From positions 186,001 through 250,000 of the forward strand of contig WIXG01000080.1 of assembly GCA_009869945.1 (NCBI GenBank): 64,000 bases of DNA, written 5' to 3'. The position numbers were made by a program, and so were the translations under genes. Below, one piece after another: positions 44,715 through 50,136 of this stretch (the first letter of the stretch is position 1; the number at the start of each line of letters is the position of its first letter). A model generated the notes under the pieces. That model saw only the letters and a program-made list of their open reading frames with translations, did no database searches and was not told the origin of the DNA. This DNA is from Mesaphorura yosii (lineage: Eukaryota; Arthropoda; Collembola; Poduromorpha; Tullbergiidae).

Positions 44715-45582
44715 TCAGGGTTGTTCGTGGAGTCCGAAGAAGATATCCAAGATCCCCAGAATGAGCTTTGGTGGAACTCCGACTGCCTCCATTCGCTCTC
44801 CCAGGTCGATTGCAGACGGTTTCATGATGAAGCTGTGGTACGAATCAATCACGTCCTGATCACGAAGTCGCATGACGAGGGCCACAAATGATTCGTCTGT
44901 GGCGAGGATGTCGAGGATCAAGTCGAGCATCTTCCATATAGGCACAATCCTCGACACGATCTCTGCAATGGCTTCCTGGTCCTCCGGCGTGCATTCATCC
45001 TCCGCCCGAGGAGCGGCGGCTGGGAGCTTTGAGACTGGAGCCGCAGCGATTTGGAAGCGCTCAGTGTAGGGAAGGTCGGGCAACTTCATACCAAGAAGCA
45101 GATGAATCAGACCGACCATGTCGTACACGTACTCCCAGCCGTTGGTGGCGATAAACTCAAGCACGGCCAAAATGCCGGGTTCTCCCCAGAAGTCGTCGAT
45201 CACCAACTCGAACTCGGGCCCACGGAAGTACTCCCACATCTCTGCGCCACACCCGCTCTCGTAGTTAATGAGCTCGATGGCTGCCTCCAAGTTGATCATT
45301 CCCATTAGGGCCTCCAGTGACGGGAGCAGGTCGTACTCGCCATCACGAAGTGCCGTGGAGCGAGCGGCGTGACGAGATCTCGCGTCGGAAATCAGCTTCT
45401 TCATGTCATTGCGAATTCGAGCGTGCTCCTCGCCTGCAAGAATGTGAACTCGGCTTCTTAAATCTAAACTTAGATTGTGATTTTCTATTTGTAGTAATTG
45501 GCTTACTGTGTCGTGCATTCGGTGACGCAGCAAGACAGAAGTTCAGGCTGACTAAAATGGCGAAGGCTGTGTTGAACTTCAT
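44715..45582 (-). CDS. Secreted protein related to the insect allergen repeat (G12/Bla g 1-like) family
   Basis: Exons on the minus strand are 45507-45582 and 44715-45433, giving 264 residues; the phase-1 intron uses A|GTAAGC and CTTGCAG. The first exon encodes a clear signal peptide (MKFNTAFAILVSLNFCLA). The body is mostly helical. It contains LLPSLEALMGMINLEAAIEL, an EYFRGPEF segment, then EFIATNGWEYVYDMVGLIHL ending in GMKLPDL. This order of short helices fits the insect-allergen-related repeat (Pfam PF06757), known from microvillar or midgut proteins such as Bla g 1. A second, weaker helical half follows a Pro/Ala-rich linker (VPIWKMLDLILDILATDES). The family is known to bind lipids and to be shed into the gut lumen; that role here is inferred. 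The assignment is by pattern, not by search. Confidence 0.65.
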
Positions 45583-45979: not shown

Positions 45980-46786
45980 CTATGAAGAGCCTATCAGGAG
46001 TAATGGGTCGTGATTTCCAGCCTCAGGCACCGGGACTGCTGACACAGCGACCAATGCCGTATTTGGGTTCATCTTCGCACTGCGTTCGGGTCGATGCCGG
46101 CCTTGCAACTCCTGCAATTGTTGTCCGTAGTCGCGATTTGGTTCGTAGATCCTCTTCAGGAGTCTTCTCTCTTCCGCCTGCCAGTCGTGCTCGTAGTCTA
46201 GCCTGTCATCTGCCCAGTCCTCTTCCTCGTCACTGTCCTTCCACAGCGACAAGAATGACTTCAACTTACCCTTATGATGATTGTGCTTGTATTTTCCTTT
46301 GTGGTAGGGTTTGTGATGCGGTTCGTGGCACGACGAAATCAGTTTGACGTACTGCACCTTGTCCTTCTTGAAGAGAAGTCCAAACAGTCCTTGGAGTAAG
46401 GTGACCAAGCCAATGAGACCGAGGAGAAGGAGAATCAGGGGAATCAGGAGCAGGAGGGGTAGCAACATGAGTAGGAGAGCGGGCAGGTTTCCCAGAGACG
46501 CCAGCAAGGAGCTGAGAGTGGTCAGGATCGTGTTGATAGCGTTCAGAATCTGAAGTATCGTCCCAATCCCAATCTGCTTCCCTGCTTCGGCTGGAGTAGG
46601 AATGTCACCACCACTCTCACTCCAGTCAATTTCAGAATTAGCCCCAATGTTAACTATAGAAGCCTCCTGCTCTTGTTCGTATTCTCCCGCCGGTCCTGTC
46701 GGTACGACACCATTCCTATGACGTCCAGAGTGGATGCAAGATGCCAAGATGGTCAACACGAGAAGGAAAGGGAAGATGAGCTTCAT
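45980..46786 (-). CDS. Unrecognised secretory-pathway protein with Leu-rich hydrophobic core
   Basis: I do not recognise this protein. The start at 46786 is chosen because MKLIFPFLLVLTILASC is a good signal peptide; the open frame continues upstream to 46981, but that part looks untranslated. The product is 268 residues in one exon. After an acidic segment comes a very hydrophobic block (about residues 75-130) of Leu, Ile and Gly, with runs such as LLLMLLPLLLLIPLILLLL. It is followed by a His/Lys-rich stretch (HKPYHKGKYKHNHHKGK), then an acidic and Arg-rich tail with WKDSDEEEDWADD. The core could insert in membrane or self-associate. A perfect donor-like GGTAAGT (46264-46270) lies within the His/Lys-rich part, so a spliced form ending elsewhere is possible. 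The layout vaguely resembles arthropod cuticle or silk-gland proteins, but no family can be named. Confidence 0.55.
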   Translation of the reverse strand: MKLIFPFLLVLTILASCIHSGRHRNGVVPTGPAGEYEQEQEASIVNIGANSEIDWSESGGDIPTPAEAGKQIGIGTILQILNAINTILTTLSSLLASLGNLPALLLMLLPLLLLIPLILLLLGLIGLVTLLQGLFGLLFKKDKVQYVKLISSCHEPHHKPYHKGKYKHNHHKGKLKSFLSLWKDSDEEEDWADDRLDYEHDWQAEERRLLKRIYEPNRDYGQQLQELQGRHRPERSAKMNPNTALVAVSAVPVPEAGNHDPLLLIGSS

Positions 46787-47855
46787 CGTCAAAGATTGAG
46801 AATAGAATGCGAACATTAACTTCCGTGTCATCATTTCTCCCGTCAAACGGGGCTGCATATTGCCATAAACAACTTTCCTGCAGTCGGAAGTCGTGCATTG
46901 AGTGGGCACAACTCTATAAGTTGAAGCCAAATCTTTCTCATCGGAGACCGAGCAAAGTTGGGTAAACGTGACGCAAGTCAACAGACGTCAAACCAGCTAA
47001 ACCGTAGCACGACAAAATCTTTCCGTAAAAAATCCCTCGGTGACATAATCCCTCTACGACAAATCCCTTCGACAAACACGAAGGCTTTAGGGGTAAGAGG
47101 AAGGACAAGAAAGGAAGAGCCTGTGAACTCGGCTACCCGGCACAAGGCGGGATTGTTAATTAGGCACACTGTTTATTGAAAATTGGAATAAGCCGAGAAT
47201 GCAAGAGTTTTTATAAAAATTCGAAACGTTATAAAAGAACAGAGTTATAAATTTTTTAAAATATAAAACAAGAAATACATAAAATTTGAACAGTAAATGA
47301 GTTAAATATGTATGAGTAATTATAAGTTAAACAGACTAGTTATACGTTAAAAGCTGTTCACTCTACAAACTGAATGGTGTGTCCAGTGGCTAATGATGAA
47401 GACTGAACTCGATTTTGAAGGCTGAAGCCATATTTTATTGCACATTTTTGGAGGAATTTTGTCGTAGGGAGATTTTGTCTATGGGAGTTTGACGGAGGGA
47501 TTCTGTCGTGGATTCAGCTAAGCTATTCTGATTCGGCGTTTTAAAATAGAGGGCAGATGGTCATTTGATTCCTGATTGCTGCTTCACTTATTCGGTGAGA
47601 AGCTGATAAGCTAAACATGATTTTAATTTGTAAATTGACGAAAATTCCCCGAATGAGGTGCGGTTGTACATGCTATCTGAAAAATCTCAAGCTCAAATCT
47701 CAACAGGCTCGGTCATCTGTCATCAATTTGTGATATTATGGTCATGGGTTTTTAATTCTTCAATGAAAAAAGTCCATAATGATTCAGACTGCGCAGCGCC
47801 CATTTCCAATTAAGTCGTCATTCTGTCGGTGCACACAAGACTAAAATAAATCAAA
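46787..47855. other. Divergent intergenic region
   Basis: This roughly 1.1-kb, AT-rich region lies between the minus-strand hydrophobic-protein gene and the plus-strand esterase gene and must hold both promoters. A TATA-like CTTATAGAG (minus strand, near 46914) could serve the left gene. No clear TATA was found for the right gene. No other gene is seen. Confidence 0.4.
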
Positions 47856-49283
47856 ATGAGACAATACAACGTATTCTTGTTTGCGTTGGCGTTCGTCTTC
47901 GCTGCGTGTCTGCAGTTGGGTTCTGGCGCAGTGAGTCTGGAAGGGTACAATGTGGACCCCAGTCAGGTGACAGTGTCCGGGCTCTCGGCTGGCGGCGCCT
48001 TCGCAACGCAGTTCCACGTCGCCTTCTCGAGCGAGGTGTCAGGTGTTGGCGTGTTTGCAGGACGTAAGTTTTTGTAGACCAGAGATTACGTACGGCAAAT
48101 GACAAATGAATTTACAACAACGGCACTCATTCCTTACGACATTATTGAATTCGCAGTCCCATACGGATGTGGGAAGGGCGGTCTCGCAGACGCTTCTCAA
48201 TGCATGTCAATTCCCGACTGGTTCGCCCCAATCGGCGGACTCATTCAGTTCGCCGAGACGCAGTCTGGTTCGGGCACAATTGATCCTGTGTCCAACCTGC
48301 GTGGACAGAAGGCGTACGTGTTCCATGGGACGAAGGATTACACCGTCCATCCCGGCAATGGAGCCAAGGTCCAACAAATGTACGAGCACTTTGGCGCCAG
48401 TGTGGCCACCGAGTTCAGCTACGACGCGAATCATGGCCATCCTACCGACTTCTACGGCGCTGCCTGCAGCGCTTCCTCCGCTGCCACGCAGTACATCAAC
48501 AACTGCGACTACAACGGCGTGTACGAGATGTTTAGGCACCTCTACGGCTCGGAAATCGTGCAGCCTAACACGGGCTCCACTCCTGCCGGAGACCTGCTTG
48601 AGTTTGATCAGTCTGAATTCGTCACGGGAACTCCAGCCTCCATCAGCATGGACTCCGTCGGGTTCGTGTACATTCCCACGGGATGCCGTGACAGAACAAA
48701 AAGGTGTCGAGTGCACATCGCCTTCCACGGCTGCGTCCAGTCGAGGACCACAGCCGGAATAGGAGATGCATTCGCGACAAAGACGGGCTACACGCACGCA
48801 GCTGAAGCCAACAATATCATCGTAATCTTCCCACAGACCGTTGCGATGGGCATGACAAACCCCAACTCTTGCTTCGACTGGTGGGGATATCTCAACTCCA
48901 ACTTCGGTAACATAAAATTTACTTAGAGCAAGTGAGCACCTGACATCTTCACCTGCATTTGCCTTTGCATTCTTATAGTGACCAAATCCGGGGCGCAAAT
49001 GGTCGCAGTGCAAAGAATGCTGCACCGCGTTCTCGATTGTCCGGGATGCCAAGAGGAGCCGGAGCCAACAACCACGACACTATCGCCAACCACGACTCAG
49101 CCCCCGGCAGGAGGTTGTGGGTCGGAAGAGATCGCGTTTAGTCGGGTGAACGGCACCTGCAACTATTACACAGTATGCGCCTGTGGCGGAGCGAACATTC
49201 TCCTCAAATGCGCCGATGGGCTGTACTTTGATGAAACCATCGAGTCGTGTAATTTCATGCAGCTGGTTCCCTGCTCCGTGTGA
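47856..49283 (+). CDS. Secreted PHB-depolymerase-like esterase with C-terminal chitin-binding domain
   Basis: Exons 47856-48063, 48157-48906 and 48979-49283 (phases 1 and 1) give 420 residues. A signal peptide occupies residues 1-24. The catalytic domain resembles extracellular short-chain poly(3-hydroxybutyrate) depolymerases: VSGLSAGG with nucleophile Ser44, FHGTKD with Asp130, and NHGHP with His164. The spacing agrees with the Ser-Asp-His triad I recall for the Penicillium funiculosum enzyme. A later FHGCVQS and SCFDWWGY also match the family. The protein then has a Thr/Pro-rich linker ([15 protein letters not shown]) and about 60 residues with six or more Cys in peritrophin-A (CBM14) order, including [11 protein letters not shown] and [11 protein letters not shown]. 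It would hydrolyse hydroxyacid polyesters or other esters outside the cell, probably held to chitin. Such enzymes are mainly bacterial and fungal; the introns and the arthropod-type binding domain show it belongs to this genome. Confidence 0.85.
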
Positions 49284-49355: not shown

Positions 49356-49361
49356 AATAAA
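49356..49361 (+). terminator. Polyadenylation signal of the esterase gene
   Basis: AATAAA occurs 73 bases after the TGA at 49281-49283, giving a compact 3'UTR. The next gene begins about 240 bases further on. Confidence 0.55.
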
Positions 49362-49600: not shown

Positions 49601-50136
49601 ATGTCGTGGTCGTCCATGTTGCCGCTACTGGTGCCATTGCTCCTCGTCATCCTAGGAGTCTCGTTCACATCAGCTGGAACTGAGCACCACCACCACTACA
49701 ACACAGGTACGAAAACAGCATACACGTATGCATCTTCCTATCGGCTGATTGTGCTGATTAACCCAAGTAGCAATGTTTCCGTAACACATCCTCGGATTTT
49801 CTTTTCTTCCTAGATTTCTGCGTCGGAAAGGCTGATGGCGAGTACGCCCACCCAAACAGTTGCCCACACTTTATTCACTGCTCCCATCAAGTGGCGCATG
49901 TGAAACCTTGTTCGGACATTGATAAGCTTGTCTTCGATCCCAACCTGCGCGTTTGTGTCTGGAAAACTGACTACAACTGCAGGAGTGGAATGCCAGGTTC
50001 AGGATCGGGTGGATCGGGTGGATCCCCTGGCAAACCGTCCAAAGCGACAAGAACGGCAGTGACGTACGCGTACGCGACTGTAGGACTTTTAGCACTGCCG
50101 ATTCTTGCTCTTAAATTAAGCCGGTACGGTGATTGA
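49601..50136 (+). CDS. Small chitin-binding (peritrophin-A) protein with hydrophobic C-terminus
   Basis: Exons 49601-49706 and 49814-50136, joined by a phase-1 intron, give 142 residues. The N-terminal 26 residues are a signal peptide (LLVPLLLVILGVSFTSAG), followed by a His-rich patch. One CBM14 domain follows, with the expected Cys pattern: DFCVGKADGEYAHP, CPHFIHCSHQ, VKPCSD, LVFDPNLRVCVW and DYNC. After a Gly/Ser linker of SGGSGG type, the last 25 residues are hydrophobic (YATVGLLALPILALKL) and end in a short basic tail. This looks like a single membrane anchor or a GPI-attachment signal, so the protein may hold chitin or a peritrophic matrix at the cell surface. It follows the chitin-binding esterase on the same strand, about 320 bases downstream. 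The TATA-like GTTTTAAAAA near 49550 could be its promoter. Confidence 0.8.

Follow-up and report, generated by a model that had tools for sequence, protein, structure and literature searches.

We found that the arthropod Mesaphorura yosii carries a gene in which the catalytic domain of a type 2 scl-PHA depolymerase is joined, within one exon, to a CBM14 chitin-binding domain. The gene has a complete three-exon structure, scores above the cut-off of the depolymerase family and keeps its catalytic residues; the same genome holds a second fused paralog and an expanded family of relatives with shared introns. In our view, this arthropod gene is probably intact and encodes a secreted, chitin-tethered serine esterase of the type 2 scl-PHA depolymerase family, acting on PHB-like polyester. 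The gene was analysed within a stretch of 64,000 nucleotides, here called the window (C80:186001-250000).

Results

Gene structure and neighbouring genes

The gene lies at 47856-49283 (+) of the window and, as read from the genome sequence, has three exons, two GT-AG introns and a product of 420 aa. The start and stop codons coincide exactly with the two ends of the region given in a preliminary description of this DNA, and the two introns that it proposed were recovered. From N- to C-terminus, the product consists of a leader-like stretch, the catalytic domain, a Thr/Pro linker and a Cys-rich domain; the hydrophobic, leader-like nature of the N-terminus was judged by eye. The features of the gene and its surroundings are as follows.

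47856..48063, + strand: exon 1, with the ATG, the hydrophobic leader-like N-terminus, the start of the catalytic domain and the lipase box GLSAG with Ser44 (by residue mapping); GT donor at 48064
48064..48156, + strand: intron 1, 93 bases, GT-AG, phase 1, interrupting codon 70
48157..48906, + strand: exon 2, the bulk of the catalytic domain, with Asp130, His162, Cys262 (HGC) and Trp311
48907..48978, + strand: intron 2, 72 bases, GT-AG, phase 1, interrupting codon 320
48979..49283, + strand: exon 3, the end of the catalytic domain, the Thr/Pro linker, CBM14 and the stop codon in an unbroken frame
49041..49115, + strand: Thr/Pro-rich linker, about residues 341-365, from the translation
49125..49274, + strand: CBM14 match, residues 369-418 (Pfam PF01607, 27.9 bits, cut-off 22.1); the genome scan gives the same place (C80:235125-235274)
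49356..49361, + strand: AATAAA, a candidate polyadenylation signal just 3' of the stop, by string match only
49601-50136, + strand: next gene downstream, with a single CBM14 (45.1 bits), starting 318 bases 3' of the esterase gene
44715-45500, - strand: frame matching the insect allergen related repeat PF06757 (24.6 bits against a cut-off of 23.2)

Other neighbouring frames matched an MFS transporter (153.9 bits) and, below the cut-off of 27, a ubiquilin-like protein (21.3 bits); the frame at 45980-46900 had no domain match. The downstream CBM14 gene also encodes a hydrophobic C-terminal stretch and its product is perhaps membrane-anchored. The preliminary description had placed the gene among ordinary animal genes, and animal-type neighbours, the CBM14 gene and the insect allergen repeat frame, are indeed present on the contig. 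In addition, the genome contains 66 matches to Chitin_bind_4 (R&R cuticle). We take these cuticle domains and the insect allergen repeat to be arthropod marks, and together they support an arthropod as the likely host of the gene. Searches for COX1 and for an 18S pattern gave no match.

A type 2 depolymerase catalytic domain

The catalytic domain matched the NCBIfam model of extracellular type 2 short-chain-length (scl) PHA depolymerases, NF050059, with 320.7 bits against a cut-off of 280, over positions 2-305 of the 305-position profile. Other models stayed below their cut-offs for this protein: the NCBIfam type 1 model (96.2 versus 150), TIGR01840 (74 versus 107.85) and Pfam PF10503, Esterase_PHB (12.4 bits versus 23), which also had no match at E <= 0.001 in a search of the genome. 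The best PDB matches were the PHB depolymerase chains 2d80 (E 4.4e-45) and 2d81 (1.1e-44) of Penicillium funiculosum. Residues 27-336 match residues 2-312 of the 2d80 chain, with 114 identities at 297 aligned positions, and in the family alignment S39, D121, H155, C250, N302 and W307 of 2d80 correspond to S44, D130, H162, C262, N306 and W311. We assume the numbering and roles of these 2d80 residues and of S40 to be those of the structure paper, with C250 presumably as the oxyanion residue; the 2d80 sequence does have the named residues at these positions. Ser40 of the fungal enzyme is replaced by Ala45, and two of the eight fungal cysteines align with Ser, although C85 and C173 are two and three residues off. 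The family score and the 2d80 alignment bear out the Ser-Asp-His domain of the PHB depolymerase type that had been noticed before.

Structure prediction of the triad and of CBM14, suggested in the preliminary description as a check, succeeded in part. The exon-2 frame modelled alone (249 residues, 17-row alignment) reached a moderate pLDDT of 69.3, and among 603 PDB matches at E <= 10 only 2d81 and 2d80, which came first, had E <= 0.001, with a TM of 0.71 by query length. The exon-3 frame folded alone gave no usable fold (pLDDT 37.4) and is uninformative for CBM14.

Type 2 enzymes are defined, in parts of PMC2666664, by an oxyanion hole located C-terminal to the triad; the same parts give the triad as Ser-Asp-His, with a GxSxG box and a hydrophobic x1. 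In the present protein, the Cys262 of HGC comes after S44, D130 and H162, and the box reads GLSAG. The architecture shared by depolymerases, as described in those parts, further includes a linker and a substrate-binding domain, in place of which our protein has the linker and CBM14. The 2d80 chain, an accepted member of 318 residues, is covered by the catalytic domain over 2-312 and has no room for a substrate-binding domain either, so we did not treat that domain as essential for type 2 membership.

An expanded family with shared introns and altered active sites

Searched in six frames with the catalytic domain, the genome (93.0 Mb, 1127 contigs) yielded 71 matches at E <= 10, spread over 25 contigs, with those of the window counted in. 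Using spliced alignment with our own script, we built 27 paralog models, which lie on 22 further contigs. Twenty-two models are near full length and five are clearly partial (L013, L021_2, L022, L025_3 and L035); family pieces on C690 and C838 were left out as they fell under the score limit of 110. Some of the L012/L013 and C1031 copies may be alleles or assembly repeats, and L021_2 and L029_1 each contain a stop.

Five intron positions are shared among the 28 models: codon 70, phase 1 (19 models) and codon 320, phase 1 (17 models), both with the window gene included, as well as position 164, phase 0 (18 models), around 264-269, phase 2 (15 models), and position 136, phase 1 (13 models). The window gene keeps two of the five; none occurs in L011, L012, L013 or the fragment L022. 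The window protein served as template for the models and good splice sites were rewarded in the fit, a procedure that may pull boundaries together, but rows of as little as about 31% identity still agree in both position and phase. L011 (C1112), L012 (C864) and L013 (C455) are intronless and possibly retrocopies; the active site is intact in L011 and L012, and L013 is cut off. On this evidence, read from sequence, the family is old and expanded in this genome.

The active site varies widely across the family. Ser, Asp, His and the oxyanion Cys are complete in 9 of the 28 models (the window gene, L011, L012, L014, L015, L016, L017, L021_1 and L031), and all of these except L021_1 and L031 have the Trp as well, which makes seven. 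The triad is present in L013, whose sequence ends before the Cys. Both Asp and His are missing from their aligned places in L018 (C584), L019 (C763), L020 (C241), L023 (C541), L028 (C344) and L032 (C356), all of which keep the nucleophile Ser; in L018 a His stands at the next position. L030 is without the Asp only, L029_2 is without the His, and in L025_1 to L025_3 the catalytic Ser is Gly (GHGSG). L021_2, L022 and L035 are too incomplete to be assigned a catalytic state. The repeated copies L025 and L035 on C1031 lie about 4 kb apart, with Gly for Ser in the three that reach that far, and are either true tandem copies or assembly repeats. L024, L026, L027 and L029_1 show a GxSNG box and a kept triad, with the oxyanion Cys changed to Ser, Ala or Tyr. 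The paralogs that have lost catalytic sites are likely pseudoenzymes. When five paralogs were scanned against NCBIfam, L011 (305.2) and L017 (316.2 bits) exceeded the NF050059 cut-off of 280, and L028 (209.8), L027 (172.5) and L025_1 (164.1) had the same best model below it.

The varied active sites of the paralogs suggest diversified roles. This would suit an active esterase whose substrate is not PHB but another ester on a chitin surface, for example cuticle lipids or microbial wall esters, as would the variation among paralogs at the positions of 2d80 N302 and W307. The window protein itself, however, keeps S, D, H and Cys together with the equivalents of N302 and W307, and it lies above the PHA depolymerase cut-off. 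We therefore regard a different substrate as a serious but clearly less likely possibility than a PHB-like polyester.

Fusion to a chitin-binding domain

A single open exon holds the C-terminal residues of the catalytic domain (from a ten-residue stretch onwards), the linker and CBM14, so the join between the catalytic domain and CBM14 is independent of splicing. Furthermore, paralog L017, on the unlinked contig C168, has the same order of catalytic domain and CBM14 within its last exon. These two observations uphold the fusion of an esterase to a chitin-binding module proposed in the preliminary description; its Thr/Pro linker is visible in the translation, and its peritrophin-A-like Cys-rich domain is the PF01607 match given above. 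The domain has cysteines at 366, 380, 386, 397, 410 and 418, a spacing that we take to be the peritrophin-A plan, and one more at 388. This extra cysteine beyond the six-cysteine plan (CAC, residues 386-388) is present in the CBM14 of both fused paralogs.

The CBM14 of the window gene is identical to that of L017 at 29 of 52 positions (56%), versus 12 of 51 for the CBM14 of the gene just downstream, and an origin from that adjacent gene is not supported. The Pfam scan of the genome gave at least 152 CBM14 matches, and among those listed, the domain directly follows the catalytic domain only in the window gene and on C168. A small profile built from three domains (window, L017 and the gene next to the window gene) detected no further CBM14 in the stretches that follow the 27 paralog models, each scanned for at most 1.8 kb, the best other match having an E of 0.15 (L012); the scan covered less than 1.8 kb for L012, L013, L025_3, L031 and L035, and less than 300 bases for L013, L025_3 and L031. 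As far as seen, therefore, the fusion is carried by 2 of the 28 family models. Most simply, this means that it arose after the family had begun to expand; the alternative is a fused ancestor followed by many losses. One fusion and a later duplication would be the simplest reading for the window gene and L017. Their sisterhood by catalytic domain appears neither supported nor rejected by the trees described below: forcing it on the 52-row tree gave a log-likelihood 1.91 above that of the free tree (p-AU 0.55), and in the 41-row tree L014 stands weakly beside the window gene (52/17).

The extra cysteine in both fused paralogs and a Pfam score 5.8 bits above the cut-off could fit a CBM14 that has lost chitin binding and now acts as a protein- or mucin-binding domain or a stabilizing tail. 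We think this rather unlikely, since both fused paralogs retain the remaining six cysteines and their domains are 56% identical, and we prefer a domain that still binds chitin.

Relatives outside the genome and origin of the family

Scanning 84,980 prokaryote species with a six-row alignment gave at least 597 stretches, at least 546 of them encoding a relative, and the best 80 of the latter were kept. Thirty-two representatives of these 80 comprise 28 Pseudomonadota, 2 Myxococcota, 1 Actinomycetota and 1 Bdellovibrionota. The window protein is 39-45% identical to 29 of the 32 and 36-38% identical to the other three. Two of the bacterial proteins, L036 and L087, scored 399.6 and 381.8 bits with NF050059. 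A tail of at least 150 aa beyond the catalytic match was present in 39 of the 80 loci (the best 80 of at least 546). Four tails were scanned: Fn3 is present in L036, L087 and L113, whose tails are long, and the short tail of L072 had no match. CBM14 would thus take the place at which many bacterial relatives probably have Fn3 plus another C-terminal region. Plasmid records contained a relative in 46 of 72,556 cases, all below 60% identity. Among viral contigs, a single-protein query, which reaches close relatives only, found three stretches that fit a pattern and no relative.

Two unrooted trees were built, with best-scoring bacteria and one fungal enzyme as the outside rows. The 52-row tree holds the window protein, 18 of the 27 paralogs, the fungal enzyme and the 32 bacteria; the 41-row tree holds 8 own rows. 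The 19 own rows of the former (of 28 models) form one side of a branch with 100/100 support, and the 8 own rows of the latter do so with 100/99. In the 52-row tree, the fungal 2d80 pairs with a Ramlibacter sequence (L087) among the bacteria (100/100), a pairing that hints at a separate transfer into fungi. Forcing the own and fungal rows together gave a p-AU of 0.0194 in the 52-row tree and 0.101 in the 41-row tree.

The nearest outside relatives are thus bacterial enzymes and one fungal enzyme, these being the outside groups searched, which agrees with the microbial affinity of the enzyme type noted in the preliminary description. Of its overall reading, the fusion of a depolymerase-type esterase to an animal chitin-binding module stands; a microbial transfer does not follow from the trees, in which the own rows occupy one side and are not nested in a donor lineage. 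A microbial origin of the family is plausible. An old eukaryotic or animal family inherited vertically, with no microbial transfer, is in our view possible though doubtful: it accords with the presence of 27 other models, and their common introns, within a single genome, with the separation of the own rows from all sampled bacteria and with a grouping of own and fungal rows that the 41-row tree does not reject, but the 52-row tree disfavours that grouping and joins the fungal enzyme firmly to Ramlibacter.

A recent horizontal transfer from a bacterium or fungus into this species appears disfavoured by the 27 further family models and their shared introns, and we consider it very improbable. 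Its appeal lies in the bacterial and fungal outside relatives, the only outside groups compared. Against it stand an identity of just 36-45% to the 32 bacterial representatives, intron positions common to paralogs and the large family in the genome; being one of more than 20 related copies, the window gene does not look like a fresh microbial import. The introns at paralog-shared positions, the family size and the neighbouring genes speak equally against contamination. That the gene model joined two neighbours, or is microbial contamination, is hardly credible even with a separate CBM14 gene beginning 318 bases downstream and splicing read from genome sequence, given the single open exon for catalytic end and CBM14, the same order in the unlinked L017, and introns and animal-type neighbours on the same contig.

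Discussion

For the protein encoded in the window, we infer secretion, chitin binding, the substrate and the site of action as follows. The leader would export the protein from the cell, and CBM14 would anchor it to chitin, in the peritrophic matrix, the cuticle or an ingested fungal wall. Ester bonds would then be attacked by Ser44, which His162 and Asp130 activate, the oxyanion hole lying around residue 45 and Cys262; we assume these roles of the triad and the oxyanion hole by carrying them over from 2d80. The target would be a PHB-like polyester from bacterial food, and the products soluble hydroxy acids. Counting against this explanation are Ala45 in place of the fungal Ser40, the change of two of eight cysteines to Ser, the pLDDT values of exon 2 (69.3) and exon 3 (37.4), and the miss by PF10503. 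A wider and more speculative proposal, which we think probably goes too far, is that the lineage made a microbial-type PHB depolymerase into its own polyester-digesting toolkit of more than 20 copies, with active enzymes, two of them chitin-tethered at the gut lining or cuticle and directed at PHB granules, and with non-catalytic paralogs that bind polyester or have a regulatory role.

Should the enzyme prove active, an arthropod could break down a main carbon store of bacteria by enzymes of its own, which is ordinarily seen as the work of microbes, and it would provide a chitin-anchored polyesterase of natural origin. With an animal chitin-binding module at the place of other C-terminal domains in bacterial relatives, the layout would clearly exemplify a microbial-type enzyme fitted to animal biology. 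Moreover, the many altered active sites make the step from enzyme to pseudoenzyme testable within one genome.

PHA depolymerases of animals, gutless marine worms among them, are reportedly described in a preprint. If so, the catalytic family is not new to animals, and the novelty lies in the CBM14 fusion and in the size and decay of the family. In our literature searches, neither an animal PHB depolymerase nor a fusion of such an enzyme to a chitin-binding domain came up, although a paper could be missed; the word "depolymerase" is absent from the main text of PMC13342648 and PMC9460274.

Several known systems resemble this gene in part. The window domain passes the Pfam cut-off for the CBM14 proteins (PF01607) that include arthropod peritrophins; unlike them, it is joined to an esterase and has an extra cysteine. 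The depolymerases of marine invertebrates possibly represent the same catalytic family in animals, and we know of no CBM14 fusion among them. The bacterial type 2 depolymerases, such as L036 and L087, have a catalytic domain 36-45% identical to that of the window protein, but the three long tails scanned hold Fn3 where the window protein has the Thr/Pro linker and CBM14. The closest likeness is to NF050059 and the Penicillium funiculosum enzyme 2d80/2d81, which share with the window protein the whole catalytic domain by sequence, the triad, an oxyanion Cys C-terminal to it and, in part, the fold; in contrast to these, the window gene is an animal gene with introns, a Thr/Pro linker and CBM14, and with Ala replacing the fungal Ser40.
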